A stretch of DNA of 64,000 nt from Streptomyces sp. NBC_01571. Its GTDB lineage: Bacteria > Actinomycetota > Actinomycetes > Streptomycetales > Streptomycetaceae. Both the position numbers and the translations under genes were made by a program. Location of the stretch: positions 1,922,001-1,986,000 of the forward strand of contig NZ_JAPEPZ010000001.1 in assembly GCF_026339875.1 (NCBI RefSeq). The letters are read 5' to 3'. The notes below the pieces were generated by a model, which worked only from the letters and a program-made list of their open reading frames with translations, did not search any database and was not told the origin of the DNA. Positions 1,793-34,310 of this stretch are shown one piece after another; position 1 is the stretch's first letter; the number at the start of each line of letters is the position of its first letter.

Positions 1793-2158
1793 ATGAGCCA
1801 GGAACAGAATGAGGGACAGCAGGTCAGGTTCGGCTCACGTTTTGCGCGGATGTTCGGCTACGTCACGCCGGAGGACCGGAGCCGATGGGAGCAGCAGCGG
1901 GCGCAGAACAAGCCGAACGTCAACGCGATCAAGCAGGGCACGAAGTCGGCGCTGGGCTCGATGATGGAGTTCGGGGAGCGCAACATCGGCGCGAAGCTCG
2001 ATGCCGCCCACCGCGTAGCGGCGCAGCAGCGGTTCGAGGAGTCCCACGACAGGGTCGTGAACCAGCGCCGCGATCCGAACACGCGGAACATCATCGAATC
2101 GGTCGACTACGAGCCCAAGGACGACCGGGAGGAGATCGAGCCGGATCTGGAGCTCTAG
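1793..2158 (+). CDS. Hypothetical protein, 121 aa
   Basis: This is a small, charged, soluble protein with no recognisable domain. An excellent ribosome-binding site (AGGAGGAAGG, about 1779-1788) sits just before the ATG and fixes the start. The sequence is predicted helical, rich in Arg, Gln and Glu, and ends in an acidic tail. It follows the 579-aa gene by 41 bp and probably shares its transcript. Function unknown. Confidence 0.8.
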   Translation: MSQEQNEGQQVRFGSRFARMFGYVTPEDRSRWEQQRAQNKPNVNAIKQGTKSALGSMMEFGERNIGAKLDAAHRVAAQQRFEESHDRVVNQRRDPNTRNIIESVDYEPKDDREEIEPDLEL

Positions 2159-2214
2159 CCGAATGGGCCAAGACAAGCGTAGCGAGTGGCACTCTATAAG
2201 CCCGTCTCTCCTTC

Positions 2215-2241
2215 TCGACTCGTTACTATCTTCGATAGACT
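2215..2241 (+). promoter_or_regulatory. Candidate promoter/operator upstream of the HU gene
   Basis: An A/T-richer gap precedes the HU gene. It contains TCGACT (2215-2220) and a -10-like TAGACT (2236-2241) with a 15-bp spacer. TCGACT/AGTCGA hexamers recur in other upstream gaps of this region (6709, 34297, 45365). This is a by-eye call. Confidence 0.3.
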
Positions 2242-2285
2242 GGTTTCTCAGCGAAACCGCGTCATGAAGGACGACAGGACAGGGT

Positions 2286-2675
2286 GTGGGTATGGAGACG
2301 ACGACGAATCCGCGTGTCAGTAAGCGCGAGTTCATCTCTCGGGTCGCGACTCGCAGCGGGTTGCCGATCCGGGTGGTGAACAAGGTGTACGAGTCGCTGC
2401 TCGGCGAACTCACGGGCGCAGTCAGCTGCGGAGAGACGGTCGTGCTCACGAGCTTCGGCCGCTTCTACCGACAGGACCACAAGGGCCACAAGGTGCGCTT
2501 CGGCAAGAGCAACGTCGACGACTACGTGGTGCTGAAGTTCTCCGCGTCGAGCAGCTTCAACCGCCGGCTCGGCGGCGATGAGGACGAGATCTCACCGGAG
2601 ACCTACGGGATGATCGAGGATGCCGACGAGTTCGAGAACGTCATTGAGGATCGTGAGCTACGGGCCGCGTCGTAG
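2286..2675 (+). CDS. HU/IHF-family DNA-binding protein
   Basis: A histone-like dimeric protein expected to bend or compact DNA. The family fold is visible: an N-terminal helical pair (residues 12-45), then the conserved strand-turn containing LTSFGRF (about 54-60), a short beta arm and a final helix around FNRRL. The usual Arg/Lys-rich arm with its proline is shortened and atypical (KVRFGKSNVDDYVVLKF), and a 35-residue acidic tail is added, so its DNA contacts probably differ from housekeeping HU. The start is GTG at 2286, or ATG at 2292. Replicon-borne HU proteins are common on large plasmids and phages. The IS701-family element begins 20 bp after the stop. Confidence 0.85.
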   Translation: MGMETTTNPRVSKREFISRVATRSGLPIRVVNKVYESLLGELTGAVSCGETVVLTSFGRFYRQDHKGHKVRFGKSNVDDYVVLKFSASSSFNRRLGGDEDEISPETYGMIEDADEFENVIEDRELRAAS

Positions 2676-2808
2676 GCAACGAGGAGCCAGCAGAAAAAGA
2701 GAACCCCCGTGATGCACTCGACTTTCGACGTTTTCGCGGGTCGCTCTGGCGAGTGTGGCTGTTGGCGTTTGGGTCCTGCGGTCTTGGCGGCGGTCGTAGG
2801 GTGAGGCT

Positions 2809-3540
2809 GTGGATGAGCGGCTTGTAGAGCAGGTACGGCAACTGGACCAGCAGGGTCGGTCGGTGAAGGCGATTGCCAGGACGTTGGGGGTGGGCGTCAG
2901 GGATGTTGGCGGGGTGCTCAACGGTGCCGTGCAGGTCTCGGCGTCGGTGCGTGACGAGCCGCGTTGCTGGGTGAACGCCGGCTGGAGCCGCAGCGTGGAT
3001 CTTGAGGGCGCGCCGCAGTGGGCGGCCTTGGACCCTGGGGCTTCTGACGCCGAGGAGGTGCGTGGCCTTGTCGCCGTGCTCGTCGCCGCGGACAGTACGC
3101 GCTCCGCGAAGGCGCAGGTCGCCGGGTTCCTGCTGGATGTGTGGTGTCTGGGGGTGAAGAACGCGCTTGCCCCGGAGTCGATGGGCGAGAGGCAACTGAG
3201 CGGGCACCGGGCGGTTTACTTCGGCGCCTTCGAGGGGCATGTGCCGGTTCCTGCCGAGCTTGCCCGCGCCCTGGTGTTCGGTGCCGCCGCCTACGCTCGC
3301 GGCCTCGGGTTCGATCCCGAGGCGGACTTCGAGGCCGCCGCCGCTGTCCTCGGTGAGCCCGCCGGTCCCTGCCCGATCCGCTTCGGCCGCGATGGCAAGC
3401 CCTTCTACGTCAACGGCCCCTATGACGATCCCGAGGCGGTGGCGCGGACGTTGCGGCGCGCCGTAGGTGACGACGGCTTCCACTGTGCCATTGCCTTCCC
3501 CGAGCAGCCGCGGCGTCGGTTGTCCTGGTCGCGCCGGTAG
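2809..3540 (+). CDS. IS701 passenger protein with N-terminal helix-turn-helix
   Basis: A 243-aa protein encoded inside the IS701 inverted repeats, ahead of the transposase. Residues 1-35 form a resolvase-like HTH (VRQLDQQGRSVKAIARTLGV), which suggests DNA binding. The remaining about 200 residues contain no motif I recognise. The GTG start at 2809 is supported by the position of the HTH; no strong ribosome-binding site is seen. Its enclosure within the inverted repeats suggests a role in control of transposition or simple hitch-hiking. Function is inferred only. Confidence 0.7.
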   Translation: MDERLVEQVRQLDQQGRSVKAIARTLGVGVRDVGGVLNGAVQVSASVRDEPRCWVNAGWSRSVDLEGAPQWAALDPGASDAEEVRGLVAVLVAADSTRSAKAQVAGFLLDVWCLGVKNALAPESMGERQLSGHRAVYFGAFEGHVPVPAELARALVFGAAAYARGLGFDPEADFEAAAAVLGEPAGPCPIRFGRDGKPFYVNGPYDDPEAVARTLRRAVGDDGFHCAIAFPEQPRRRLSWSRR

Positions 3541-3673
3541 GCCGGACCCCGGGGCGGGGGAGCCCGGTGGCTATCACCTTGACGGGTGAGGCACCGGGTG
3601 TCCGGGCCCGTGGTGGGCGGGGCCGCGGCAGCATCGGTGGTGTGGCGACCGCGCCCGGGGAGGGATACCTGCG

Positions 3674-4990
3674 ATGCCGACTGTGCCCGCTTCGCTGTTC
3701 GCCGTACTGGAGTTGGTACGGGGCAACTTCACCGCGCCGACGTTTCGAACCTTCACGGCGCTGGTCACGGGTCTGATCGCGCAGACCGGGCGGTGCACGG
3801 TGACCGGGATGCTCACCGGTGTCGGGTTGACGCGCGCATGGTCCCACGACCGCGCCCACACCTTCTTCTCCCGCGCCCCGTGGAACCCGGACATCCTGGG
3901 CATCTCCCTGTCCCACCTGGTCGTGCGCCAACTCCTGCCCGCAGGTGCGGTGTTGACGGTGGCGGTGGACGACACGCTGTTCAAGCGGCGCGGGAAGAAG
4001 GTCTTCGGTGCGGCCTGGCAGCACGACGGCGCGGCCACCGGACCCCGGGGTGTCGGGCGCGGGACCTGCTTCGTCGTCATCGGCCTGGTCGTCGACCTGC
4101 CCTTCCTGGCCCGGCCGGTGTGCCTTCCTGTCATGGCCCGGCTGTGGCGACCCGGGCAGGAAGGCAGCAAAGTCGACATCGCCGCGTCCATGATCCGCCT
4201 GCTGGCCGCCTGCCACCACGGCCGGCGCGTTCATGTCGTCGCGGACGCCGCCTACCACGGCAAAGCCTTACGCGATCTGCCCGCGACCTGCACCTTCACC
4301 ACCCGACTGCCCGCACCCTCGGTCCTGTTCGCCCAGGCCCCGCCCAGGACCGGCAAACGCGGGCGCCCCGCGCTCAAGGGCGCGCGACTGGGCACGCCCG
4401 CCCAGCTCGCGGCCACCGCCGACTTCGCTCCCGTACAGGTCACGCGCTACCAACGTACCGAGCAGGTGCATCTGGCCGAGGTCACCTGCCTGTGGTACGG
4501 CTCCTTCCACACCCGCACCGTGCGCGTGATCCTGCTCCGCGACGACACCACCGACACCGGCTACGACCTGGCCCTGGTCACCACCGACCTGACCAGCAGC
4601 CCGGCCGAGCTGATCACCCGTTACGCGCGGCGCTGGTCGATCGAGGTCACCTTCGCCGAGGCCCGCGGCCTGCTCGGAGCCGGCCAGGCCCACAACCGCA
4701 CCCGGGCCGCGGTGGAACGCACCGTGCCCTTCGCCCTGTACTGCTACACGATCACGGTCGTCTGGTACGCACTGCACGGCCACCAGCCCGGCGACGTGGC
4801 CGAGCACCGCGAGCGCGCCCCCTGGTACACCACCAAGACCGACCCGTCACTGTCCGACATGGTCGCCAAGCTCCGACGGGTGATCATCGCCGCCCGATTT
4901 ATGCCCACCCGCCCAGGTCAGCCCACCGAGCAGGAAATCCGCACCGTCCAGCAGGCATGGGCCGCGGCCAGCACCGACGCCGCCGCGTGA
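3674..4990 (+). CDS. IS701-family transposase
   Basis: A DDE transposase of 438 aa, close to the family norm. The first catalytic Asp region reads VAVDDTLFKRRGKK (about residue 98), and the C-terminal part around RRWSIEVTFAEARGLLGAG carries the conserved Glu. It is intact. The stop lies 63 bp inside the right terminal repeat, so the element looks potentially functional. Confidence 0.9.
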   Translation: MPTVPASLFAVLELVRGNFTAPTFRTFTALVTGLIAQTGRCTVTGMLTGVGLTRAWSHDRAHTFFSRAPWNPDILGISLSHLVVRQLLPAGAVLTVAVDDTLFKRRGKKVFGAAWQHDGAATGPRGVGRGTCFVVIGLVVDLPFLARPVCLPVMARLWRPGQEGSKVDIAASMIRLLAACHHGRRVHVVADAAYHGKALRDLPATCTFTTRLPAPSVLFAQAPPRTGKRGRPALKGARLGTPAQLAATADFAPVQVTRYQRTEQVHLAEVTCLWYGSFHTRTVRVILLRDDTTDTGYDLALVTTDLTSSPAELITRYARRWSIEVTFAEARGLLGAGQAHNRTRAAVERTVPFALYCYTITVVWYALHGHQPGDVAEHRERAPWYTTKTDPSLSDMVAKLRRVIIAARFMPTRPGQPTEQEIRTVQQAWAAASTDAAA

Positions 4991-5080
4991 CTCCCCGAGC
5001 CTGTCAGAACGTCGAAAGTCGAGTGATGCACAGGCATCACGGGGGTTCTCTTTATGGCGGGACGAGCCCAGTTGCGACGC

Positions 5081-5203
5081 TCAGCCGTCGGCGATGGCAA
5101 AGATCAGCACGAGCACGATGACCAGGACGATGAGCACGCCAGCCCCGGCGAGGAGGTGCTCCCACCCCAGCGGCGAGTTGATCCAGCCCATGAAGTCGTT
5201 CAC
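5081..5203 (-). CDS. Small single-span membrane protein, 40 aa
   Basis: Starts at GTG 5203, overlapping the stop of the preceding 40-aa gene (GTGA), so the two are translationally coupled. The N-terminus NDFMGWINSPLGWEHL is followed by one very hydrophobic segment (LAGAGVLIVLVIVLVLIF) and a short acidic end. DF-[I/M]-GW followed by a Pro also occurs in the 113-aa membrane protein two genes upstream, suggesting related modules. Function unknown. Confidence 0.7.
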   Translation of the reverse strand: MNDFMGWINSPLGWEHLLAGAGVLIVLVIVLVLIFAIADG

Positions 5204-5322
5204 AGGCCGGCGAAGGTGCTCGCGATCGAGGCGAAGAAGCCGGTGACCCATCCGCCGATGACCGCCAGACTGACGCCGCCGATCAGACCGAGAGCGATGA
5301 TGGCACGAGCACTCTTGAACAT
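5200..5322 (-). CDS. Small membrane protein, 40 aa
   Basis: ATG at 5322 is preceded by a GCAGGACC ribosome-binding site; an alternative in-frame ATG lies at 5334. The protein is a positively charged N-terminus (MFKSAR) followed by a glycine-rich hydrophobic span and a short amphipathic end. It is sandwiched between the 113-aa and 40-aa membrane genes with a 23-bp gap and a 4-bp overlap respectively, so the three form one operon. Holin-like or signalling-peptide roles are possible but unproven. Confidence 0.7.
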   Translation of the reverse strand: MFKSARAIIALGLIGGVSLAVIGGWVTGFFASIASTFAGL

Positions 5323-5345
5323 GGTCCTGCACATGACGCCCCGCA

Positions 5346-5687
5346 CTACTTCCGGTCCTCGAAGAGCAGGTAGTACAGCCCGATGTGCGGGATGACGAGG
5401 GCCGCCAGCGCGATCCAGGCCCGCCCCGGGTCCTCGACCACCCAGCCGATGAAGTCCCTGACGGGTCCGACGTAGGCCAGTACGGGGGCGAACAGCTCAG
5501 TGCGGAAGATGACGTGGAAGATGCCGTAGGCCATGCCGAGGGCGATCGCCAGTCCGATGCCGCGCCGTACGAAGAGGGCGCAACGAGGACTGATCAACCG
5601 GCGGCGTCCCGCGGTTGTGCTGGACTGGGGTTCAGCATCCAGAGCTGCCGCCTGGGTCACTGGCTCGTAGTCGTACATCGCCACCAT
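5346..5687 (-). CDS. Membrane protein with two predicted spans, 113 aa
   Basis: A cytosolic, Arg-rich N-terminus of about 40 residues is followed by two hydrophobic segments (IGLAIALGMAYGIFHVIF and WIALAALVIPHIGLYYLL) separated by a loop containing VRDFIGWVVEDP. That loop motif resembles the start of the 40-aa protein at 5081. It is first gene of a three-gene small-membrane-protein operon. A -10-like TAGAAT lies in the A/T-rich leader at about 5720. No homologue is recognised. Confidence 0.75.
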   Translation of the reverse strand: MVAMYDYEPVTQAAALDAEPQSSTTAGRRRLISPRCALFVRRGIGLAIALGMAYGIFHVIFRTELFAPVLAYVGPVRDFIGWVVEDPGRAWIALAALVIPHIGLYYLLFEDRK

Positions 5688-5762
5688 CTCGCTCTTATCA
5701 AATAGCTATTACCTCCATTCTATGAGAAACCATCAATGGTCAGAAGAATCGCGAATTACAGG

Positions 5763-6275
5763 TCACTCGAACTGGAGGTCAGGCTCATCCGCGGATGGCG
5801 TGCCGAAGCTGCTGATCGAGCGCTGTCGGGGTCGTGAGGGACTCGCGATCGGCTCGCGCTGCGCAGCCAGCTCGGCGAGAGTGAAGCCCACGGGGCGACC
5901 GAGGCGCTGGCCGGCCATGTAGTAGGCCTGCCCGTTCGCGCGTTCACCCAGGGCGATGATCTCGCGGGTGACGGGCTCGCCCGGGCGCTGGGGCGCGCGC
6001 TCCCGCCAGACGATCCGGTGCGAGGGCTTCGCATTCGGATCCGCGCCGACGTACGTGGTCTCGCAATCAGAGAGGTCGGGATAACTGGGCATGTACTCCA
6101 GCGGGTGCGTGCTCGGCGCGCCCTGCTGGATCCGGCCCAACTGGTTGAGAGCCACGCGCAGGAGCCGGTCCTCCGGTCCATGAGGGTGCATCACCGCGGC
6201 GTCGTGGAGCGTCTGGAGGTCCTGCTTGAGACCGGTCGTCGGCAGAAGGCGGACGGGAGACCGACGCTCACTCAT
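5763..6275 (-). CDS. RelE/ParE-like toxin of a type II toxin-antitoxin pair
   Basis: A 170-aa protein whose core (about residues 10-145) fits the RelE-superfamily pattern seen in actinobacteria: helical start (GLKQDLQTLHDA), then HPLEYMPSYPDLSDCETTYVG, the strand HRIVWRERAP, and EIIALGER followed by a Tyr-containing helix. Such proteins usually inhibit translation or gyrase. ATG 6275 overlaps the antitoxin stop by 8 bp and has an AGGAGAA ribosome-binding site, so it is translationally coupled to its partner, the usual antitoxin-first order. An extra disordered tail of about 25 residues follows the toxin fold. Confidence 0.65.
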   Translation of the reverse strand: MSERRSPVRLLPTTGLKQDLQTLHDAAVMHPHGPEDRLLRVALNQLGRIQQGAPSTHPLEYMPSYPDLSDCETTYVGADPNAKPSHRIVWRERAPQRPGEPVTREIIALGERANGQAYYMAGQRLGRPVGFTLAELAAQREPIASPSRPRQRSISSFGTPSADEPDLQFE

Positions 6276-6675
6276 CACGCTTCTCCTGCTGGGCAGCACG
6301 ATGCCCATCCGCCCACTGCTGACCGAGCGGGCCAAGGCTCTCGGCGAGCTCTTCGATGGTCATGCTCGCCTCGCCGGAAGCGTCGGACTCCTGGGTGCGA
6401 CGGGAGAGCTCGGCCTGGAAAGCAGCCTCAGCGTGGACGTGGGCCGCGTGGTCGTACTTCATGAGGCGCACGAACGCGGCGAAGGGGATGATCGCGGCCT
6501 CGGGCTTGTTGCCGTCCCCGAAGATCAGCGGCGTGATCTCGCCGCGGCGATAGAGGTTCAGCATCGTGGCGAGGTCCTCGCGCCTGAGCTGGTCGGTCGG
6601 GACGACATTGACGGAGAACTTCGGGAGCTCGGCGTCGGGAGTGCCGTTGTCGTGAGCGTTGCTGTTGTGAGTCAT
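6268..6675 (-). CDS. Phd/YefM-like antitoxin
   Basis: A 135-aa protein with a central Phd-type segment, LATMLNLYRRGEITPLIFGD, followed by KPEAAIIPFAAFVRLMKYD, which corresponds to the family's pattern of a strand, a turn with Gly/Asn-Lys-Pro, and a helix. The variable C-terminal half would wrap the toxin encoded immediately downstream (8-bp overlap). An operator-like inverted repeat lies 34-68 bp upstream, consistent with autoregulation by the antitoxin or complex. Confidence 0.65.
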   Translation of the reverse strand: MTHNSNAHDNGTPDAELPKFSVNVVPTDQLRREDLATMLNLYRRGEITPLIFGDGNKPEAAIIPFAAFVRLMKYDHAAHVHAEAAFQAELSRRTQESDASGEASMTIEELAESLGPLGQQWADGHRAAQQEKRDE

Positions 6676-6708
6676 AGCTTCAGCCTAATCAGTCAGGAAT
6701 AGCTTGTC

Positions 6709-6743
6709 ATCGACTCGCATACGACTTTGTTCGCCGAGTCGAT
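6709..6743 (-). promoter_or_regulatory. Operator-like palindrome upstream of the toxin-antitoxin pair
   Basis: A perfect inverted repeat ATCGACTCG / CGAGTCGAT (6709-6717 and 6735-6743) has a 17-bp spacer containing another CGACT. It sits just upstream of the antitoxin start at 6675, the usual place for a Phd-type operator. Confidence 0.5.
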
Positions 6744-6806
6744 AAGGACATCGAATGGTCGATCGCTCCGCCTCTGAGAGACGGAGCGGTTAGGGGAAAG
6801 AAGAGA

Positions 6807-6847
6807 CCCGTGCCCCAGTCCCGCACGGTGCGGAGCCGGGGCACGGG
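6807..6847. terminator. Perfect hairpin between divergent blocks
   Basis: CCCGTGCCCC (6807-6816) pairs exactly with GGGGCACGGG (6838-6847). A smaller hairpin lies in the loop. It lies just past the end of the gene at 6873-9034 and probably terminates that transcript. Confidence 0.6.
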
Positions 6848-6872
6848 CCCTGATGGATGGACGGTCGCGACT

Positions 6873-9034
6873 TCAGAAGTTCCCCTCGTCGGTGAGGTCG
6901 ACGGTGAGGTCAGCGCCCTCGTCGGGGCGCAGCAGCGCGAGAGTACCGAGCGCCGCGGACAGAACCTCGTCATCCAGGTCGGCAGTCCCGGCCGGGGGTA
7001 GAGGGGCGGGCGGCCTGCTCGTCGCGGACGGCCATGGGCAGCATGGCGGCAGCCTGCGACCGGTAGTCCTCCAGGCCCTGGGCGTACGTCCCGGCCGCGG
7101 TGATCCAGCCGTACCGGGCGGAGTGCAGGCGGCCGGCCCGGAACGTGTAGCCGGTCAGCCGACCGCGCTCGGTACGCTCGGCCTGGAATGCCTCGGCGTG
7201 CGGGTACGTGCGTTCCACGCGGGCGCGGGCCTGGTCCTCGGTCAGCTCGTCCGGCTGCGGGCGGTCGCACAGGCCGCACAGGCGGGTGTTGGGCACGCCG
7301 TCGACCACCTCGTCCACCTCTATGACCACGTACACGCAGCACTCCCGGCACGGCACGTCCACGCGGCGCACGCGCCGGCGGAACTCCAGCCGGTCTTCGA
7401 GCGTGAAGCGGAGCGGCCCGGCGCTGATGCCGTCCAGGACCAGCCACACGTGAGCGTTGGTGGTCTTGTCCACCTGGAGACCCTTGACCTCCATCGCCTG
7501 GCCGTCGACCACTACCAGGTCGCCGTCCTTGGCGTGGCAGGCCAGGCCGCGGGGGCGCGGCGGGTGGTAGAAGACGGCCGTGGTGTCGCGCATGGTCAGC
7601 TCCTCGCGGCTGCCGCGTGCGGGGCGGCAGCTCCCCGGCCACACCCACATGACGCCCTGCTGGCGGTCGTGCTGGGCGAGCTTGCCGGAGGGCAGCAGGG
7701 GCGCGGTGTGGTCGTCGTAGCCGCACAAGCCGGTCGGGCCGTCGTACTCGGCCGGGCCGTGGAACGGCACGGCCAGGCGGCTGCGCACCTCGACGGCGGC
7801 GGCCTGGGTCACCCGGCCGTCCGTGCCCGTGTACGCCTCGGCACGCAGGACGGCGCGGCGTCCCTGGACCTTCCAATCCTGGTCGACCTGCTCGGCGACC
7901 TCCATCACCTGGGTGACCGGCACGCCCAGTTCGCCGGCGATCTCGGCGACCTCCACGGGCCACGCCTGGGCCACGGCGTCCTTGGCGGCGTCCAGGTCGT
8001 GGTGGAACCCGACCTTGCCGTCGCGGCGCTCAGCGTAGGGGGCCCAGGCGGCGTAGCGGCCGCGGCGCATGCGGGCGCCCTCATCGTGGACGGTGCCCAG
8101 GAAGGTGCCGCCGCGGACGACGGCCCAGCGGGCGGCGCCGTCCGACTCCAGGCGCACTGTGTCCGGGTCCAGGGCGGCGGCCATGCACTCCAGAACCTCG
8201 GTGGGCTCGGCGGTCACCACGGCGATGTGCTCAGCCATGGGGGCGTCGTCCAGGCCGGTGCGGCGGGCGAGGAGGGCGGCCTGGTCAGCCTGCCACCGGT
8301 ACTCGCTGCCGTCGCCCTGGCTGATGATGTTGCGGACGGACACCCAGTGGTAGTGGGCGCGGGCGCCGTGGCCGGTGCGGAACGTCCAGGCGATACGCTC
8401 GCCGTCCGGCAGGTCGACCGGCTGGAAGGCGTGGGCGGTGGCGTGGCTGGCCAGGACGAGCGTCCGGGCAGACCTCGGTCACCAGCTCCTGACGGCGCGC
8501 CTGGTCGTCCTGGTCGGCGCGGTGAAGGACGTGGGGGGCGACCAGGTCGGCACCGCCGTCGTCCCAGCGCACGGCCTGGTAGGCGTAGGGGGCGGCGCCG
8601 TCCGCCACGCCGAACGTGGTGCCGGTGCGCTCGGTGTCCTTGGCGCGCATGACCACCCGGGTGCCGTCCGTGTAGTAGGTCAACTCCGGGTCGAACATGG
8701 TCGCGGTCGTGACGGTGTCGGCATCCAGGGGGCGCACGCGCCGCTCGATGTCGGCGACCTTGGCGGCCTGGTCGTCCTCCGCTGGGGCTGCCGGGGTCTG
8801 CTCGGCGGCGCCGGCGGCGGGGGCCTCGGTCTCGGCCGGCGGCTCGGTAGCCAGGACCTCCACGGCGCGCTTGCAGGGGCCGCACGCCTTGCGGTCGGCG
8901 GCCTCCTGGGCGGTCAGCTCCCGGGACACCAGTCGACCGCAGCCGATGGTGTGGGAGTGGAACGTGTCCTTGCGGACGTAGTGCACGGCCTTGCCATTGC
9001 CGACCTGGGCTGGGGCGGTGGTGATCGCGGACAT
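6873..9034 (-). pseudogene. Frameshifted hypothetical gene (about 719 aa if restored)
   Basis: Three reading frames join into one protein. ATG 9034 (ribosome-binding site AGGAGAACC) begins an N-terminal part with a CG-x8-C-x13-CGPCK type Cys set. Near 8455-8465 the frame shifts, and a second frame runs on as HATAHAFQPVDLPDGERIAW and beyond. Near a G5 run (6994-6998) it shifts again and ends at 6873 with a tail like that of the neighbouring gene (SAALGTLALLRPDEGADL). Removing one base at each site gives one continuous frame. A C-terminal Cys pair set (CRECC ... CGLC) suggests zinc binding. Function unknown; either real decay or uncorrected indels. Confidence 0.6.
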
Positions 9035-11058: not shown

Positions 11059-11140
11059 TTAGAGGGCTTCTCGAAACCGAGTGTGGAGCTGGGGGTTCCG
11101 TACGGGTGTGCTGTTCAGGTGATTGTGGCCGCGTGGGGGC

Positions 11141-11985
11141 ATGAAGGCAGGGCCTCTCGGTAGCACAGAGGGTGTCTACGCCACTGCTCACCGGGAGGCC
11201 CTGTTGCCGCAGTTGTATCGGTCTGCTGTGAAAGAGTCCATTCCGGACACACGGACGTGCGACTGCTTCGCCCACACGTACGGGAACGCGGCGGACAATG
11301 CGTCCGGCGGGCACTGCTATCCGACCGACATGAGGGACGCGGAGTGGGCCGCGGTCCGCGAAATGGTTCCGGTGCCGGCGTGGAGCGAGGGGCGGGGCGG
11401 CCGGCCGGAGGAGTACTGCCACCGGGACATACTCGACGCGATCAGGTATGTGGTGGACAACGGCGTGAAGTGGCCTGCGCTGCCTGTGGATTACCCGCCG
11501 TGGAAGGCGGTGCATCGGTTCTTCACCCGCTGGCGGAAGCAGGGGCTGATCGGCGAGTTCCACGACCGGCTCCGTGCCGCGACCCGTGAAGCGCAGGGCC
11601 GGGATGCGGAGCCGACGGCGGGGGTGATCGACTCGCAGTCCGCGAAGGGCACGTCGACGGTCGAGGCCGCGACCAGCGGCTATGACGGCGGGAAGAAAAT
11701 CAAGGGCCGTAAGCGGCACATCGTGGTGGACACCCTCGGCCTGATCCTGGCGGCCATGGTCACCCCCGCCTCGACAGGGGACCGGGACGCCGCCCAGGAC
11801 CTCCTGGCCCGGGCAGCCAGGCAGCATCACCGGCTTCGGCGCGTGTGGGCGGACAGCGGATACACCGGCATGCTGGTGGGCTGGTGCGCGACTGCTTTGA
11901 ACCTGATGCTGACCGTCATCCGCCGCAGCGACGACCGGAAAGGCTTCGTCGTGCTGCCCAAACGGTGGATCGTCGAGCGGACCTT
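11141..11985 (+). pseudogene. IS5-family transposase, 5' exon
   Basis: This encodes the N-terminal and catalytic parts of an IS5/IS1031-type DDE transposase: CYPTDMRDAEW, PEEYCHRDILDAIRY, GVIDSQSAKG with the first Asp, GRKRHIVVDTLG, VWADSGYTG with the second Asp, and KRWIVERT with the Glu. Reading stops being transposase at 11985, where the group II intron begins. The 3' exon is at 17186-17363. Excising 11986-17185 gives an uninterrupted frame through ERTFAWLTRSRRLARDYE, the normal family sequence. The start is uncertain: ATG 11141 is the first in-frame ATG and a TTG lies at 11123. Confidence 0.85.
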
Positions 11986-12484
11986 GTGCGCCACGAGGCG
12001 CTCTGTTTGTATCCCCGGCTCAGCCGGGAGGAACTCGGAAGGAGGTTCCTGGGCCGGATGACTTACCTGGATCCGAAAAGTGAAGGGGACAACAGCATGT
12101 CAGAAAACCAGTGACCGGGCTCAGTTGTCAGAGACGGTGTGCTGGGCGGCCCGCGCGATATGGCGAAGACTGGATTGTTTGAAGCCCAATCTCCAGAAGA
12201 TGCAAGTTCCCATCCGCCGGAAAGACGACTGAAACCGGCGCCGTGCTCTGCCCTGGATTCGAAGGTTGTCTGGGGCACTTCCGGAGCTCGGAGCGATGTC
12301 CAACGAGGACATCCAAGGAGATGAGTGGGACGCCTAAGTCGCGCTAGAACGTACAGACAGAGACGAACGTGGGATCGCCTACGGGACGCGAGTCCTATGG
12401 CGACGGAGGCCCCGTAGTAGTCGCCGGAGTCACGACCGGCCAGGGAGGGCGGGAAAGCCGTCCACATCGGGCGAAGGGGGCCAG

Positions 12485-14035
12485 GTGACTCGGACACCAC
12501 AGAATCGTGAGGTATGCGAAATGCAGAGCGCCAAAACGGTGCTGGGTGTCCTGCGTGAACGCGGCAGACGTGGTCTGCCGTGCAAGGAGCTGTATCGGCA
12601 ACTGTTCAATCCGCAGTTGTATCTGCTGGCCTACGGGCGGATCTACGCCAATCACGGCGCGATGACGCCCGGGGTCACACCGGAAACCGTGGATGGCATG
12701 TCCCAGCGGAAGATCGACCGGATCATCGAGGTGATGCGCCACGAGCGCTACCGCTTCCGTCCGGTCCGGCGTGTCCATATCCCGAAGAAAAACGGGAAGA
12801 CGCGTCCGTTGGGGCTGCCGACCTGGTCGGATAAGCTCGTCGGGGAAGTGATCCGCCTGTTGTTAGAGGCGTTTTACGAGCCGATATTCTCCGACCGCTC
12901 CCATGGATTTCGTCCGCGCCGTGGCTGCCACACCGCATTGCGGGAGGTGGACCACACCTGGACCGGGACGTCCTGGTTCATCGAAGGGGACATCGCCGAC
13001 TGCTTCGGCAGCCTGGACCACCAGGTCCTGTTGTCGATCCTCGGCGAAAAGATCCATGACCAGCGGTTTCTGCGGCTGGTGCGCAACATGCTCAAGGCCG
13101 GATACCTGGAGGACTGGAAGTGGGGTGCCACGCTCTCCGGAGCGCCGCAAGGCGGAGTGGCCTCCCCGGTCCTGTCCAACATCTACCTGCACAAGCTGGA
13201 CGAGTTCGTCGAGACAGTCCTTGTTCCGGAGTACACCCGAGGGAAGCGCCGGGCCCGAAACCCGGCCTATCTGGAGTTGCAGAATCTGCTGGCGAAAGCC
13301 CGCCGACGCGGCGACCGGGTCCAGGCCCGTGCACTGCGTCAGCGGATGGTCAGCCTGCCGAGTGCGGATCCGAACGATCCGGAATATCGCAGGCTGCGCT
13401 ACATACGCTATGCGGACGATCATCTCCTTGGTTTCACCGGACCGAAAGCCGAGGCCGAGCAGATCAAGCAGTGCCTGGCCCAGTTCCTGCGTGACGAACT
13501 CAGGCTGGAACTGTCCCAGGGAAAGACGCTGATCACTCATGCCCGCACCGGGGCAGCAAGGTTTCTCGGCTATGAGATCACGACCCAGCACAACGACACG
13601 AAGAAGACAGGACGTTACCGTCGGGTCAACGGCCAGATCGCTCTCCGTGTCCCACGGGACGTGATCAAAGCCAAGTGTGCCCCCTATCTTGACCGCGGAG
13701 AACCCGCGAAGAGGACGGCCCTGATCAACAGCACCGATCACGCGATCGTGGCGACCTTCGGGACCGTCTACCGGGGCACTGTCCAGTACTACCTGCTCGC
13801 CGGAGATGTCTTCCGGCTGCACCGGCTGCAATGGGCCATGGAAACCTCGATGCTCAAGACCCTCGCAGCCAAGCACCGCTCATCAGTGTCGAAGATGGCC
13901 GCCAAGCACAAGACCAGAATCGACACCCCCAACGGGCCCCGAATCTGCTTCGAGGCCCGAATCGAGCGGAAGAACAGGAAACCGCTGGTGGCACGGTTCG
14001 GTGGAATTCCTCTCCAACGGCAGCGAGCGGCAGAA
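12485..14035 (+). pseudogene. ltrA: Group II intron reverse transcriptase/maturase, N-terminal part
   Basis: The intron-encoded protein should splice its own intron and drive target-primed insertion. RT motifs are clear: IPKKNGKTRPLGLPTWSDKL, GDIADCFGSLDH (D169), SGAPQGGVASPVLSNIYL, and the catalytic YADD at residues 309-312. The X/maturase domain follows. At codon 517 an ISAs1-family element interrupts the gene. The remainder, with an HNH domain, is at 16810-17076 in the same frame once the insertion and its 9-bp duplication are removed (605 aa in total). GTG 12485 has an AAGGGGG ribosome-binding site; an ATG at 12521 is an alternative. Confidence 0.85.
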
Positions 14036-14150
14036 CAGGGCTTGATCAAGTTCCGTAGGTGTCTGGTTCGGTTGTGATGCCCAGGATGTGGAGTGCTCGT
14101 TCGGGTTCGTTTCGAATCGCTCGGGTGGTTTTGGCGATGTTGTCGGATCC

Positions 14151-15528
14151 CAGGGCTTGATCAAGTTCCGTAGGTGTCTGGTTCGGTTGTGATGCCCAGG
14201 ATGTGGAGTGCTCGTTCGGGTTCGTTTCGAATCGCTCGGGTGGTTTTGGCGATGTTGTCGGATCCGAGGGTCTTCAGGACGCCGATGGCGAGGTTGCGGA
14301 GGGTTGCCATGGCGCGGGGTGCGGTGCCGGTGTGGACGGTGGAGGCGTCTTCGGCGAAGGTGACGTCCCTGATGTGGTGTGAGGAGTTCTCGATCCCCCA
14401 GTGCCCGCGGATCGCGGTGGCAAGGCCGGCGGGGCCGGTCTGGTGGGCGTCGAGGCTGGTGACGGCGTAGAGGCTCTCCCGGGTCTCGCGCTGGCCGGTT
14501 TGCTTGCGGCGGCGGTGGACACGGATGGCCAGGCGGCCGTGGGGGAAGGAGATCCCGCCGAGTTCGTCCGGGACGGCGCAGGTCTTGATCGAGCGGGACT
14601 CGCGCCTGCCGTGCCCGGTGGTGGAGGCGGTGTGCTGGACGGGAATATCGCGCCACGGCAGGTCCGCGAGCTGGCTGTGGGCGGTCGGCTGGTTGGTCTT
14701 GATCACGGCGATGTAGTGGGCCTTCTTCGTCTCGACCAGCCAGGAGACGTTCGCCTTGACCGAGTGCAGCGCGTCGAAGGTGACGACGGTGCCGGCCAGG
14801 TCCAGCGGTGCCAGGAGCGGTTGGAAATGTGTGGTTTCGTTCGTCTTCGCGCCCACTTCCACCTGCGCGAGGGTGACGACCGGGGCGTGGGTGACCGCGG
14901 AGAGCAGATGCCGGCGCTTCGCGGTCAGACGGGCTGATCCCTTGAGTGTCTTGCCGTCGACAGCGATCACACACGGCCGCCCGGACGCCGAGGGCGATGG
15001 CCTGTGGGCCGGCTCGGTGGCGACGCGGTGCCGGTCGGCGAGGTAGGCGCCCACCGCCCGGTCCAGGGCGTCACCGTCAACGGTCCCCAGCACCCGGCCG
15101 ATCGTGGCCGGTGACGGAGTGCGTCGCCAGCCGAGCAGGTGACGCCGGATCCCGATCACTACCAGGAGTGCGTTCGAGGCGCGCTGGCCCCACTCGGCGA
15201 GTTCCTCGATGCTCCTCGCTCCCGACACGGCCGCACAGGCGCACACCAGCAAGATCGCGGTCAGTGAGTACCAACGGCCCCGCCGCGAGCGCGGATCGGG
15301 CACCGCATCGAGGTAGGAACGCAGATCGGCGACCTGACCGGCGTCCAGCGGACCCAGCCTCATCAGCACGGCAGGGACCGGAGAAGATATTGCAGCAGGC
15401 ACGGGCCACCTCGTGATCATCGGGCGTAGGAACCACAATGATCACGAAACCCGTGCCTGCCCTGCTATCCACCCCAACCGACGACAGCCCGGCCAACCCT
15501 CACCACCCCGGAACTTGCAGCCGCCCTG
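14151..15528 (-). mobile_element. Inner ISAs1-family copy, complete
   Basis: A complete 1,378-bp element flanked by the 9-bp duplication GTCGGATCC (14142-14150 and 15529-15537). It has inserted into an older copy of itself in the same orientation. By eye it differs from the outer copy by one base (t/g in the sequences near 15385 and 16665), so the second jump was recent. Confidence 0.9.
14161..15420 (-). CDS. ISAs1-family transposase (inner copy)
   Basis: A 419-aa DDE transposase of the ISAs1/H-repeat type. The N-terminal associated domain reads [20 protein letters not shown], followed by [15 protein letters not shown] with the first Asp, VVTFDALHS with the second Asp, and [20 protein letters not shown] with the Glu. 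The protein is intact. ATG 15420 is taken as start; a TTG at 15438 and later ATGs are possible. Confidence 0.88.
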   Translation of the reverse strand: MITRWPVPAAISSPVPAVLMRLGPLDAGQVADLRSYLDAVPDPRSRRGRWYSLTAILLVCACAAVSGARSIEELAEWGQRASNALLVVIGIRRHLLGWRRTPSPATIGRVLGTVDGDALDRAVGAYLADRHRVATEPAHRPSPSASGRPCVIAVDGKTLKGSARLTAKRRHLLSAVTHAPVVTLAQVEVGAKTNETTHFQPLLAPLDLAGTVVTFDALHSVKANVSWLVETKKAHYIAVIKTNQPTAHSQLADLPWRDIPVQHTASTTGHGRRESRSIKTCAVPDELGGISFPHGRLAIRVHRRRKQTGQRETRESLYAVTSLDAHQTGPAGLATAIRGHWGIENSSHHIRDVTFAEDASTVHTGTAPRAMATLRNLAIGVLKTLGSDNIAKTTRAIRNEPERALHILGITTEPDTYGT

Positions 15529-16692
15529 GTCGGATCCGAGGGTCTTCAGGACGCCGATGGCGAGGTTGCGGAGGGTTGCCATGGCGCGGGGTGCGGTGCC
15601 GGTGTGGACGGTGGAGGCGTCTTCGGCGAAGGTGACGTCCCTGATGTGGTGTGAGGAGTTCTCGATCCCCCAGTGCCCGCGGATCGCGGTGGCAAGGCCG
15701 GCGGGGCCGGTCTGGTGGGCGTCGAGGCTGGTGACGGCGTAGAGGCTCTCCCGGGTCTCGCGCTGGCCGGTTTGCTTGCGGCGGCGGTGGACACGGATGG
15801 CCAGGCGGCCGTGGGGGAAGGAGATCCCGCCGAGTTCGTCCGGGACGGCGCAGGTCTTGATCGAGCGGGACTCGCGCCTGCCGTGCCCGGTGGTGGAGGC
15901 GGTGTGCTGGACGGGAATATCGCGCCACGGCAGGTCCGCGAGCTGGCTGTGGGCGGTCGGCTGGTTGGTCTTGATCACGGCGATGTAGTGGGCCTTCTTC
16001 GTCTCGACCAGCCAGGAGACGTTCGCCTTGACCGAGTGCAGCGCGTCGAAGGTGACGACGGTGCCGGCCAGGTCCAGCGGTGCCAGGAGCGGTTGGAAAT
16101 GTGTGGTTTCGTTCGTCTTCGCGCCCACTTCCACCTGCGCGAGGGTGACGACCGGGGCGTGGGTGACCGCGGAGAGCAGATGCCGGCGCTTCGCGGTCAG
16201 ACGGGCTGATCCCTTGAGTGTCTTGCCGTCGACAGCGATCACACACGGCCGCCCGGACGCCGAGGGCGATGGCCTGTGGGCCGGCTCGGTGGCGACGCGG
16301 TGCCGGTCGGCGAGGTAGGCGCCCACCGCCCGGTCCAGGGCGTCACCGTCAACGGTCCCCAGCACCCGGCCGATCGTGGCCGGTGACGGAGTGCGTCGCC
16401 AGCCGAGCAGGTGACGCCGGATCCCGATCACTACCAGGAGTGCGTTCGAGGCGCGCTGGCCCCACTCGGCGAGTTCCTCGATGCTCCTCGCTCCCGACAC
16501 GGCCGCACAGGCGCACACCAGCAAGATCGCGGTCAGTGAGTACCAACGGCCCCGCCGCGAGCGCGGATCGGGCACCGCATCGAGGTAGGAACGCAGATCG
16601 GCGACCTGACCGGCGTCCAGCGGACCCAGCCTCATCAGCACGGCAGGGACCGGAGAAGATATGGCAGCAGGCACGGGCCACCTCGTGATCAT
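15442..16692 (-). pseudogene. ISAs1-family transposase (outer copy), C-terminus replaced
   Basis: Identical in protein sequence to the inner copy up to KTLGSD, where the inner copy has inserted. The last residues are now read from the inner element's end and adjoining DNA, giving a foreign tail of about 30 residues. The displaced true C-terminal codons lie at 14046-14150. The DDE residues are upstream of the break and the Glu motif survives, so activity is uncertain. Confidence 0.8.
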
Positions 16693-16809
16693 CGGGCGTA
16701 GGAACCACAATGATCACGAAACCCGTGCCTGCCCTGCTATCCACCCCAACCGACGACAGCCCGGCCAACCCTCACCACCCCGGAACTTGCAGCCGCCCTG
16801 GCGGCAGAA

Positions 16810-17076
16810 CTCGCCGATCGCGAGCCGGTTCGGGTGGACTATCCGCAGAAGGAACTCATCGCGAGACTCCTGGCGGACACCTGCGAGATCTGCGGAAGCA
16901 AGGGCAACGTACAAGTGCACCACGTCCGCGCTCTCGCCGACCTCGCACATGCCGGATGGCAGCCTTCCGACTGGGCGCGCGTCATGCTTCACCGGCGACG
17001 CAAAACCGTCGTGGCCTGCGACACCTGCCACGACCGTATCCACTCAGAACGGCCAGCCAGACCACTCACGCAGTAG
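16810..17076 (+). pseudogene. C-terminal HNH part of the intron reverse transcriptase
   Basis: This continues the 12485-14035 frame after excision of the ISAs1 copies. It reads VDYPQKELIARLLADTCEIC and on, with a Cys-x2-Cys, the HNH core VHHVRALADL and a second CDTC pair. This is the zinc-bound HNH endonuclease domain usual at the end of group II intron proteins, which nicks the bottom strand for priming. The stop at 17076 precedes intron domain V by 8 bp. Confidence 0.85.
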
Positions 17077-17084
17077 TCACTGGA

Positions 17085-17119
17085 GAGCCGGATGACCGGG
17101 AAACCGTCATGTCCGGTTC
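17085..17119 (+). ncRNA. Group II intron domain V
   Basis: A 35-nt hairpin opening with GAGCCGGA and closing with TCCGGTTC, with a GAAA tetraloop and the catalytic AGC triad. This is the most conserved part of group II introns and fixes intron identity and strand. Confidence 0.9.
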
Positions 17120-17185
17120 GGCGGGAGGCCGCGCGGAACAGGACTCGCCCTCACGGCGAGCACCTCACCGCGCGGCCGACCCAAC

Positions 17186-17363
17186 CGCCTGGCTCACCCG
17201 TTCCCGGCGTCTCGCCCGCGACTACGAACGGCTGCCCGCGTCGTCGGAGGCGATGATCCTGTGGTCAATGACCATGGTCATGACCCGCCGTCTCGGCCGT
17301 CGCCGCAGACGAACCGGCCCGGTGCCGGCTCGTGCGCCCATCCCCGCGCAACGAGCCGCTTGA
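17186..17363 (+). pseudogene. IS5-family transposase, 3' exon
   Basis: The first base completes the codon split by the intron. The sequence continues AWLTRSRRLARDYERLPASS and ends at 17363, completing a 340-aa transposase if ATG 11141 is the start. Its last about 85 bp overlap the convergent passenger gene on the other strand. Confidence 0.85.
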
Positions 17364-17781
17364 GCTTGCACCGCACACCCTCGGTCTTCGCCGGAACCAC
17401 CTCCAGCCCCAACAAGGCAGTGATCTCACGGCAGTTCAGTGGCTGACCGCCAGTGGCACGGCGATCGGCCAGCAGGTCCATGACCTGCTGATACTCCGGC
17501 GCCAGTACCTCGGCCGACAGTCCCTCCCGCCAGGGAGGAACAACCGACCCGGGCCTCGCCGCCGTCGGCGCCGTGGCTTCGTTCCCGCCCGGCGTCCTCC
17601 CTACCTCGCCCTCCTGGCCTGCGGATTCACCCAGGTCGTCCCACACCTCGCCGACCCGCCTACGGGCGACCAACCACTCGTCCCACTCCGACTGCGCCGC
17701 CTCCAGCTCGGCCTGCAACTCCTCCACCCGCTTCCGGGCCGCCCGCTCCCGCTCCTCCAGCCGCCCCAGCACCGACGCCAT
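17278..17781 (-). CDS. IS5-element passenger: coiled coil plus winged-helix-like protein
   Basis: A 167-aa protein encoded convergently to the transposase within the IS5-family ends. ATG 17781 follows a GGAGG ribosome-binding site. Residues 1-55 form a coiled coil (LGRLEERERAARKRVEEL). A disordered Pro/Ala linker follows, and the C-terminal 65 residues look like a winged helix (YQQVMDLLADRR, then CREITALLGLEV and KLKRLVARGW). Similar proteins accompany some streptomycete IS elements. A regulatory or DNA-bridging role in transposition is inferred. Its 3' end overlaps the transposase end antisense. Confidence 0.7.
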   Translation of the reverse strand: MASVLGRLEERERAARKRVEELQAELEAAQSEWDEWLVARRRVGEVWDDLGESAGQEGEVGRTPGGNEATAPTAARPGSVVPPWREGLSAEVLAPEYQQVMDLLADRRATGGQPLNCREITALLGLEVVPAKTEGVRCKLKRLVARGWAHEPAPGRFVCGDGRDGGS

Positions 17782-17896
17782 CACGCACCTCCAGCACGCC
17801 ACCTCAACGGACGCACCGGACCTACCTCACCCACCGCCGGACTATGCCTGACCAGCACAAACCAAGCCCCACACTCGGTTTCGAGAAGCCCTCTTA

Positions 17897-21463: not shown

Positions 21464-23172
21464 GAGCGTGTCTCAGTAACCGGCAACCCGCCTGCGGTTC
21501 GTGATTATTCATACGGGATGATCACGGTATGCGTGGTGGCGAGGGGCTGTTCGAGGTCGAGCCGGTCGGGAAGAAGCGGCCGCAGGGTCAGCTGGCGGCG
21601 GTGGACAAGACGTTTCGGCCCTTCGATCCGCATCAGGTCCTGCTGCTGCCGCCGTCGCTGGACGACTGGCTGCCCGAGGGCCACCTGGCCCGGTTCGTCG
21701 CCGACCTGGTCGATGAGGTGCTCGACCTCGGACCGGTCCTGGCGGACTACACCGAAAAGCGCGGCTACCCGCCCTACGATCCGCGGCTGATGGTACGACT
21801 GCTGATCTACGGCTACACCACCGGCGTCCGCTCCTCCCGGGCGATCGAGCGCCGCCTGGCCGACGATGTCGCGTTCCGGTTCCTGGCCGCCGGCCAGGAA
21901 CCGGACTTCCGCTCGATCGCCCGCTTCCGCCGCCGCCACCTCGACGCGCTGGCCGGTCTGTTCACCCAGTCCCTGCACCTCGCACAGACACTCGGCATGG
22001 TCAAGATGGGACGCGTCGCGCTGGACGGCACGAAACTGGAGGCCAGCGCCTCCAAACACAAGGCGATGAGCTACGGCCGCCTGGTCGACAAGGAAGAGCG
22101 GATAGAGGCCGAGATCGCCGCTCTGGAAGCGAAGGCCCACGCCCTGCTGACCGACGCCGAGGCCGCCGACGAAGCCGAGGACGACACCTTCGGCGTGGAC
22201 GGCAAGGAGGCGGACCTGCCCGCCGAGCTGGACCGGCGTGAGAAACGCCTGGCGAAGCTGCAGGCCGCCCGCGCGCAGATCGAGGCCGAGGCCGCCGCCA
22301 AGGCCCGCGCCCACGCCGAGGACAAGGAACGCCGCCGTCAGGAACGTGCCGCCAGCAGCGACGAGCAGGCCGTCACCGACGCCGGGGAAGCGGCCGCCGC
22401 CAAGGCCCGTCCCAAGCCCAAAGCCCAGGCCAACTTCACCGACCCCGACTCGCGGATCATGAAGAACAGCGACGGCGCCTACATCCAGGCCTACAACGCC
22501 CAGGCCGTCGTCGACGAAGAACACCAGGTCATCACCGCCGCCGACGTGACGACCAACCCCTCCGACGCACTGAACTACACCACGATGCTCGACCAGTCCG
22601 CCCACAACACCGGCATCCACCCCAAGCAGGCCCTGGTCGACGCCGGGTACTGCTCCGAGACCAACCTCGAAGCCGCGAACGAGCGCCAACTGGCCTGCGG
22701 CACCGACACCTTCATGGCCACCGGCCGACTCGCCCACGACGAGCAGGTCCCGCCCGCTCCACGCGGACGCATCCCCAAGGACGCCACGCTGAAGGAGCGC
22801 ATGGCCCGCAAACTGCGGACCAAACCCGGCCGGAAGGCATACAGCCGCCGCAAAGCCATCGTCGAACCTGTCTTCGGACAGGTCATGACCTGCCAGAACG
22901 GCCGCCAGCTCCTCCTGCGTGGCGAGGACGGCGCCCGCGGTGAGTGGCGACTGCTCGCCGCCTGCCACAACCTCCGCAAGATCTTCCGACACTCCGGGCT
23001 CGCCGCCCAGGCCGGCTGACCAGCCAGGCCCCCGGCCCACGCCACAGGCCCTACCAGCCGAACAACAGCCGGGAAGGACCCAACCACGGCCTCACAGGTG
23101 CACACGAAACGGCCGCGACCGATCCCATCGATCACGGCCAGCGAGCCCCTTGCTCGTTACCGAGACACGCTC
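21464..23172 (+). mobile_element. IS1182-family element, copy 1
   Basis: 1,709 bp with ends GAGCGTGTCTCAGTAAC / GAGCGTGTCTCGGTAAC, flanked by CTAG on both sides (21460-21463 and 23173-23176). Copies 2 (52630) and 3 (57280) have exactly the same length and transposase. Confidence 0.9.
21529..23019 (+). CDS. IS1182-family transposase, copy 1
   Basis: A 496-aa DDE transposase. The N-terminal DUF772-like region reads FDPHQVLLLPPSLDDWLPEG, with YDPRLMVRLLIYGYTTG. The catalytic Asp region is MGRVALDGTKLEAS, and the C-terminal domain has NAQAVVDEEHQVI, VDAGYCSE and KAIVEPVFGQ. A highly charged coiled-coil insert occupies about residues 195-310. It is intact and the same as copies 2 and 3. Confidence 0.92.
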   Translation: MRGGEGLFEVEPVGKKRPQGQLAAVDKTFRPFDPHQVLLLPPSLDDWLPEGHLARFVADLVDEVLDLGPVLADYTEKRGYPPYDPRLMVRLLIYGYTTGVRSSRAIERRLADDVAFRFLAAGQEPDFRSIARFRRRHLDALAGLFTQSLHLAQTLGMVKMGRVALDGTKLEASASKHKAMSYGRLVDKEERIEAEIAALEAKAHALLTDAEAADEAEDDTFGVDGKEADLPAELDRREKRLAKLQAARAQIEAEAAAKARAHAEDKERRRQERAASSDEQAVTDAGEAAAAKARPKPKAQANFTDPDSRIMKNSDGAYIQAYNAQAVVDEEHQVITAADVTTNPSDALNYTTMLDQSAHNTGIHPKQALVDAGYCSETNLEAANERQLACGTDTFMATGRLAHDEQVPPAPRGRIPKDATLKERMARKLRTKPGRKAYSRRKAIVEPVFGQVMTCQNGRQLLLRGEDGARGEWRLLAACHNLRKIFRHSGLAAQAG

Positions 23173-29154: not shown

Positions 29155-30237
29155 TCAGAAGTCGATGGAGTACTTCGGGGGACGGCGCAGGATCACCGCG
29201 GCGGCACGCAGGTCCTTCTCGTCGTCGGGCGACCTGTCGTCCTCGTCACGGAGGTCGGTGAGCGTGAAGGCACCATCCGGGAGCTGGTAGCCGTCCTCGG
29301 ACGGGACGGCGTCGCGCATGCGGAACTGCAGCCCGATGCCGGTGTCCCAGTCGTTGATGGTCTGCAGGCTGTCGCTGTTGAACAGATCGACACGACCGTC
29401 GAAGACGTCGGTGTCGCCGTTCTTCCAGGTGATGTGGGCCTCGATCCGCGAGCCGGCGTGCTCGCTGCGCTTGATATTCAGGTCACCGATCACCTCGGCG
29501 AACGACTCTCCCAGACGCAGCTCGAAGGCGATCGCCCGCAGGTGGTCGAAGTTGATGTCGTACTTCCGGGAGAAGTCGACGATCTCGGCCACTTGCTTCT
29601 CGGCTACTCCGGGCACCTGGTCGCGCAGGTAGGTGGCCACCGTCTCGGGCTCGGGGTAGGCGAAGCGCATGTGGTAGTGGAAGCGGCCGGGGCGGTTGAG
29701 CATGTAGTCGTTGACGCGGTGCAGCTCGTTGACCGACAGGACGTAGAGGCGCTTCGTCGTGCTCAGCCCGTCGAACAGACTCAGGAACTGGTTCTGCGAC
29801 TCGTCGTCCTCGTTGGAGAAGATCTTCTCGAACTCGTCGAAGACGACGACGACTTCGCCCAGCTCGTCGAGGAAGGCTGCCAGCCCCGGTGTGTCGTGGT
29901 GTACGAGCACGGTGGGCAGGTGGTGCTCCTCGCGCATCCGCTCGGCGAGCAGGCGGAGCATGAGGCTCTTACCCATGCCCTTGTCGCCGGAGAGGATGAC
30001 GCCGAGCGAGCGGTCCATGGCGGAGTAGCCGGTGACGATCCTCCGTACACGGGAGGCGTGGCTGCCATAGACGGTCTCTCCGGCGCATGCCAGCGGCTCC
30101 GTCTGGCGCAGGCTGTAGCCGGTCGTCTGAGAGAAGGCGATCGTGTAGGTGGCCACGGGCAGGTCAGCGAAGGTCTGCACGGAGTCCCCGTAGAGGCGGA
30201 ACTCCCCGCCGGAGGCGACGATCGTGGATGCGGGCAT
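29155..30237 (-). CDS. AAA+ ATPase, 360 aa
   Basis: A single-module AAA+ protein. Walker A is GDKGMGKS (84-91), Walker B VVVFDEFE (130-137), sensor-1 Asn in VLSVNEL (about 170), and an Arg-finger-like NRPGRFHYHMRF (181-192), the order seen in FtsH/CDC48-type or phage AAA proteins. After residue 260 a beta-rich C-terminal part follows. It is expected to form a hexamer that remodels proteins or DNA complexes. ATG 30237 has GAGAAG upstream. A perfect hairpin ends the gene. It is one of four AAA+ proteins within 14 kb. Confidence 0.85.
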   Translation of the reverse strand: MPASTIVASGGEFRLYGDSVQTFADLPVATYTIAFSQTTGYSLRQTEPLACAGETVYGSHASRVRRIVTGYSAMDRSLGVILSGDKGMGKSLMLRLLAERMREEHHLPTVLVHHDTPGLAAFLDELGEVVVVFDEFEKIFSNEDDESQNQFLSLFDGLSTTKRLYVLSVNELHRVNDYMLNRPGRFHYHMRFAYPEPETVATYLRDQVPGVAEKQVAEIVDFSRKYDINFDHLRAIAFELRLGESFAEVIGDLNIKRSEHAGSRIEAHITWKNGDTDVFDGRVDLFNSDSLQTINDWDTGIGLQFRMRDAVPSEDGYQLPDGAFTLTDLRDEDDRSPDDEKDLRAAAVILRRPPKYSIDF

Positions 30238-30249
30238 GAAGACTTCTCG

Positions 30250-30651: not shown

Positions 30652-30708
30652 GGCGGCGCGGGTCTTCTTGCGCTGGGCCCGTTGCGGGCGTGCGGGGCGG
30701 TGCTTGGC

Positions 30709-31122: not shown

Positions 31123-31208
31123 GGGTGGATTCCTGTTCTTCGGCGGGAAAGCGTGGTGGAGGCGGGAGGCAAGGCCCGGCGCTGCTCAAACACCGCCGTT
31201 CCGCCTAG

Positions 31209-31391: not shown

Positions 31392-31408
31392 GGGGTGGCG
31401 GCGGTTGG

Positions 31409-34207: not shown

Positions 34208-34264
34208 GTCGCTGCCTTTCTTGAGTGGATTGAGGGGCGGATTGATAGAAGGCATGAATCACGC

Positions 34265-34310
34265 CGCATAGCAATTCCGACAAGAGATTAACAGCAAGTC
34301 GAATGCTCGA
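34265..34310 (-). promoter_or_regulatory. A/T-rich leader with candidate helicase promoter
   Basis: On the minus strand TTCGACT (34303-34297) is followed five bases later by TTAATCT. The same TTCGACT-N5 arrangement occurs upstream of the LysM gene. Candidate promoter/operator only. Confidence 0.3.

Follow-up and report, generated by a model that had tools for sequence, protein, structure and literature searches.

A 64,000-nucleotide stretch of Streptomyces sp. NBC_01571 (the window; contig NZ_JAPEPZ010000001.1, positions 1,922,001 to 1,986,000) carries four mobile elements, one inside another. The outermost is an insertion sequence (IS) of the IS5 family. Its transposase gene is interrupted by a group II intron, the protein-coding part of the intron is interrupted by an element of the ISAs1 family, and this element contains a second copy of itself. 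The best explanation as a whole, to which we assign a probability of about 0.8, is an IS5 element with a homed intron and a double ISAs1 that is mobile as one unit, the order of the steps being unfixed. The four-level containment and all of its boundaries were confirmed at base level in the assembly sequence by sequence reading, repeat search and direct inspection of the ends. Relatives with empty or uninterrupted sites back the boundaries independently, and the chance of an exact 9-bp duplication at predicted ends is about 4e-6 (1 in 4^9) each.

A sequence-only reading had described this nest, and its assignment of families and its four-level containment stand. The nest is clean, each layer having an empty or uninterrupted counterpart elsewhere. 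The same reading had also taken the order of events to be readable, and this part is not supported: the whole double ISAs1, 2765 bp long, recurs without a single difference at another locus, where it has a 9-bp duplication of its own. The order of the nest cannot simply be taken as the order of events, since the inner pair has an identical copy elsewhere as one unit. What is fixed is which layer lies inside which, not the order in which, or the places where, the steps occurred. The nest itself is a further case of a known phenomenon. Of most use are two of its features, the double unit that has a twin elsewhere and the way in which the intron clade homes to motifs.

The IS5-family element (11062-17893) lies between two copies of TTA (11059-11061 and 17894-17896) and is bounded by 32-bp terminal inverted repeats, at 11062-11093 on the plus strand and 17862-17893 on the minus strand, with 2 mismatches between them. 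Exon 1 of its transposase gene (11123-11985, plus strand; start codon not established) matches PF01609 and PF13340, and from this exon alone the IS5-type DDE transposase model NF033580 scores 170.7 bits (cut-off 110). Exon 2 (17186-17363, plus strand) was delimited from the sequence and from uninterrupted relatives. A search with the right flank gave matches in 6 of 392 same-genus genomes, including its own. One of them (G131) has the empty site with a single TTA; its left flank is 98.8% identical over 1504 bp and its right flank 96.9% over 1653 bp. Exon 1 has six full-length close matches, which come from four other genomes of the 392. The four IS5 relatives that were fetched (L069-L072) all align end to end with both exons at 87-91%, lack the intron and have 3-bp duplications; duplications of relatives read TAA, TAA, TCG and TGA. 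In its own genome no other close copy of this IS5 was found, the next match being 72% identical. The element is like other IS5-family members in its above-cut-off transposase (NCBIfam), inverted ends and 3-bp duplication, and differs in that its transposase gene is split by an intron. It also carries an accessory open reading frame (ORF) of 174 aa (17278-17802, minus strand), which has no Pfam or NCBIfam match. This ORF is common to all four close IS5 relatives, at 79-87% identity, and is 45% identical in L024.

The group II intron (11986-17185, plus strand) begins with GTGCGCC and ends with CCCAAC, in agreement with the consensus ends of group II introns, GUGYG and AY. Its ribozyme 3' end at 17083-17185 (plus strand), which we take to be domains V-VI, matches Rfam RF00029 at 47.3 bits (gathering score 40). 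Exon-binding site 1 (EBS1), AAGGTT at 12262-12267 on the plus strand, pairs at 6/6 bases (one G-U) with intron-binding site 1 (IBS1), GACCTT at 11980-11985, the last six bases of exon 1. The intron protein is found in two parts in the same frame, a reverse transcriptase (RT) and maturase part (12485-14035, plus strand; start codon not established), which matches PF00078 and PF01348, and an HNH endonuclease part (16834-17076, plus strand; PF21368). No other close copy of the intron was found in its own genome. The ISAs1 insertion point is uninterrupted in 8/8 intron relatives checked. The sequence-only reading had held that the restored layers should align end to end with intact relatives. They do: the joined IS5 exons match as described above, and once the ISAs1 unit is left out of the intron, seven relatives can be aligned at 84-92% along virtually the full 2426 bp.

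Splicing of the intron may persist, because neither the ribozyme ends nor the RT/maturase part is disturbed. Production of the IS5 transposase would depend on this splicing. Endonuclease-dependent homing is probably lost, since the ISAs1 unit cuts off the HNH part.

The double ISAs1 (14036-16800) is 2765 bp long and is flanked by GCGGCAGAA at 14027-14035 and 16801-16809. Its outer copy consists of 14036-14150 and 15538-16800. The inner copy (14151-15528; 1378 bp) is inserted 115 bp from the left end of the outer copy and is flanked by GTCGGATCC at 14142-14150 and 15529-15537; single copies of it exist elsewhere in the genome. Both duplications are those of the sequence-only reading. The outer copy, counted without the second GTCGGATCC, is also 1378 bp, and one base differs between the two. 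The inner transposase ORF (14161-15438, minus strand; 425 aa) is uninterrupted, and the last part of the outer one (15442-16710, minus strand) has been replaced by the insertion. They match the ISAs1 transposase model NF033564 at 178.6 and 178.7 bits, respectively (cut-off 70). ISAs1 elements make target duplications of 8-10 bp; inverted ends and 9-bp duplications are present here at both levels. The elements resemble their family in above-cut-off transposases (NCBIfam), inverted ends and duplications, and differ in that one copy lies within another and the pair has an identical twin.

This twin was found with the inner ISAs1 as query, in the same genome (L033, G000:C1:106757-109521). It is identical at 2765/2765 bases and has its own 9-bp duplication, CCTGTCCGT, and different, unique flanks. 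Position 1241 is T in the inner copy and G in the outer copy at both loci. At least 14 near-identical ISAs1 copies, including single 1378-bp copies, exist in the genome, and a comparison of 14 copies gave 9 variable columns in all. Eight of ten other near-identical full-length copies have an 8-9 bp duplication and two (L008 and L012) have none, judged by eye. A 30-base sequence across the junction of the double unit occurs in 1 of the 392 genus genomes, a sample drawn from a larger group; this is its own genome, where it is found in two places. Two independent self-insertions at the same base are judged unlikely, because both units share the T/G combination and all 2765 bases. The double unit could act as one composite element, since the inner transposase ORF is uninterrupted and the outermost ends are intact, and it most likely moved as a whole at least once. 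As the identical unit has different 9-bp duplications at the two loci, at least one of them probably received the inner layers already nested. Another ISAs1 arrangement, at 4594-8040 of L034 (G000:C5:78001-89634), consists of a full copy directly next to a partial one; the partial copy is interrupted by 1480 bp of inserted sequence with a 9-10 bp duplication.

The targeting of the intron can be followed in its closest clade, whose hosts are Streptomyces and other actinobacteria. In 28 rows (25 distinct), which include 20 of the 28 contig loci L088-L115, the intron lies after (V/I/L)ER(T/S/A/L) of IS5-type transposases, always in the same codon phase. The ER at this site is presumably part of the catalytic glutamate motif of IS5 transposases. 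Where exon 2 is readable (24/28 rows), it continues (A/G/S)W(L/I/F). The other eight of these loci are not in the table: the 5' end is unclear in L090 and L096 and was not found in L105, L107 and L108, and L111, L113 and L114 have targets of other types. L090, L096, L107 and L108, in which only exon 2 can be read, have a TGG codon in the same place. Beyond L115, outside the table, L127 also carries the intron after VER, and L133 (RT 78% identical) carries it elsewhere. Seven of nine close relatives tested match the IS5 model, with only L099 and L101 reaching the cut-off; the five matches below it are exon-1 fragments. In these family tests L092, L095 and L115 gave no Pfam match, and L092 and L115 no NCBIfam match.

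Introns and exons differ greatly in their similarity to those in the window. In 27 rows (L106 was too short), the introns are 81-95% identical over 500 nt and the exons 50-72% over 400 nt, shuffled exons giving a mean of 50 and a maximum of 53. As the introns are far more alike than the exons, the intron appears to have moved repeatedly between distantly alike IS5-type genes.

The EBS1 loop was compared with the exon ends. In a first test of 11 distinct introns with one fixed column, 46/66 positions pair, against a mean of 33.2 for shuffles, of which 13 of 20000 reach this value; a neighbouring column gives 51 pairs. Over 35 introns, 161/210 standard pairs form between the column used in the window and the six bases at the end of the exon, and no other column exceeds 124; this set includes the first 11, and the choice of column is not independent of them. 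From the loci beyond L116, only L124, L127 and L154 were taken into it. Freedom within the loop raises the score to 181. The shuffles, which ignore relatedness, have a mean of 153.8, and 0/5000 of them reach 181. At its best pairing the loop pairs at 6/6 bases in 13 introns and at 5 in 15. Judging from these sequences, the EBS1 loop covaries with the target.

Some of these introns appear to be nested in other ways. In L175 (G187:C75:8001-16000, reverse 2055-6919), about 2.4 kb of sequence interrupts a close relative of the intron after position 491 of the latter. This insert contains a second intron with 68-70% similarity, giving an intron in an intron. More group II intron starts, possibly further nests, are found inside or beside clade introns in L090 (at about 5823) and L096 (at 1289 and 3467). 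One of these extra starts falls in what reads as domain V sequence.

The preferred explanation runs as follows. An IS5-family element sits at a TTA site. An intron would have homed into its transposase gene just after the conserved VER codons through EBS1-IBS1 pairing with the exon; pairing and site are seen directly, and the homing itself is inferred. The protein-coding part of the intron holds the 2765-bp unit, in which one ISAs1 is inserted into a second copy, 115 bp from the end of the latter. With its outermost ends and the transposase of the inner copy, the double unit would have transposed as a whole. Because the twin unit exists, the innermost insertion may have taken place outside the intron, and this is so for transposition and conversion alike. 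No donor is visible for the IS5 or the intron, since the genome contains no further close copy of either, and the containment fits an IS5 that came with the intron as well as one that came without it. Several points weigh against this explanation. The RT part scores 258.3 bits with TIGR04416, under the cut-off of 300, which is due to the intron protein being split. At most 4 of the 6 EBS1-IBS1 bases pair in 7 of the 35 introns. Lastly, gene conversion among the copies of ISAs1, or an assembly error at repeats, could also account for the twin.

Stepwise building in place is unlikely, about one chance in four. Here the IS5, the intron, the ISAs1 and the ISAs1 in ISAs1 would have been added in turn and the finished unit later moved to C1:107 kb. 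All boundaries fit such a history, and so does the twin if the window was the donor, but nothing favours it over formation of the unit at C1:107 kb or at some third locus, and the genome has no other close copy of IS5 or intron from which these could have arrived separately. The main alternative to movement of the whole unit is gene conversion, in which homologous recombination with the unit in the window gave a single ISAs1 at C1:107 kb its inner copy, or the reverse. Near-identical ISAs1 copies are abundant, and the separate duplications at the two sites are what single insertions would leave. However, an insertion and a conversion tract that leaves 2765 bp identical are both needed, while transposition of the unit needs one event, and we regard conversion as rather improbable. 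An assembly artefact, with the double unit at one place only or a repeat copied by the assembler, is suggested by the at least 14 near-identical copies and the 15 contigs. It is very improbable, as the two places differ in exact 9-bp duplications and unique flanks and relatives match the predicted empty or uninterrupted sites. Co-descent of the intron with its IS5 from an ancient single insertion, without homing, would account for 28/28 closest-clade rows at the same codon position, but it is rejected as scarcely credible in view of the similar introns in dissimilar exons (229/351 pairs have introns at least 85% and exons less than 65% identical) and of close IS5 relatives without the intron.

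Distant relatives of the intron were selected and their exon-1 frames were tested against families. The frames match different transposase families: IS481 (L047, 289 bits, cut-off 224; L124, 117 bits, below it), IS701 (L114 and L154, 365 bits, cut-off 150) and ISL3 (L053, 187 bits, and L123, 212 bits, cut-off 180). Matches below the cut-off were obtained for IS3 (L137, 132 bits, cut-off 160), IS1380 (L129, 69 bits, cut-off 180) and IS5 (L049, 108 bits, and L056, 74 bits, cut-off 110). The insertion points in distant relatives read GK(V/I)ERF, IEE(C/S), VADRW, GDITYL and GTWGF, and by eye they resemble catalytic-core motifs. L050 and L116 are distant relatives with flanks that look ISAs1-transposase-like by eye.

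It is conceivable, at somewhat less than even odds, that this actinobacterial intron clade persists by homing into codons for catalytic-core motifs of DDE transposases and retunes EBS1 for each target, VER in IS5 and comparable motifs of IS481, IS701, ISL3, IS3 and IS1380 in distant relatives. The most conserved and widest-spread stretch of another parasite's gene would then be a lasting home, and IS pairs nested in such introns would travel on as composite units. The intron data provide a testable rule for a group II intron lineage spreading across unrelated transposase genes. A literature search (titles and abstract openings) found no paper in which group II introns home to the catalytic motifs of multiple families of transposases. 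Not all relatives fit motif homing, and some interrupt SEL(V/T/A)TNA frames unlike transposases. L059 lies in a histidine-kinase-like ATPase gene, and for L063 a weak carbon-nitrogen hydrolase match below the cut-off is the only one. SEL(V/T/A)TNA is interrupted in L119, L120, L122, L126, L134, L141 and L162, a possible non-transposase target family; the motif resembles, we assume, the N box of RsbW-like ATPases. The exon frame of L119 had no family match in the profile tests.

Nests of this kind have precedents. In Thermosynechococcus elongatus, introns are described that occupy a conserved site within an insertion sequence or within a further intron, as is an intron ORF, TeI4g, interrupted by an IS element (PMC2882425). 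Compared with what is described there, the nest in the window stacks both in one locus and adds a second ISAs1 inside the first; the target of its intron is an IS5 transposase motif, and relatives of this intron reach other transposase families. Methanosarcina acetivorans is described as having nested group II introns, up to five (PMC4424553). These are likewise deep nests of mobile elements, but they consist of introns within introns, while the nest in the window combines three kinds of element (IS5, intron and ISAs1). Another example is a group II intron of Methanosarcina mazei divided by a transposase gene (PMC8919778). As in the window, a group II intron is split by an IS-type gene; the host is archaeal, and the passage describes that one layer alone.

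Other parts of the window also contain possible mobile elements. The regions at about 2718-5022 and 21464-23172 are absent from the otherwise 96-99.7% matching G131 region, and each has a transposase-like ORF. A transposase-like ORF of 496 aa is found in three copies (21529-23019, 52783-54273 and 57345-58835). Large minus-strand ORFs form a block at 29155-45254; by eye they resemble ATPases, a helicase and a VWA-type protein.

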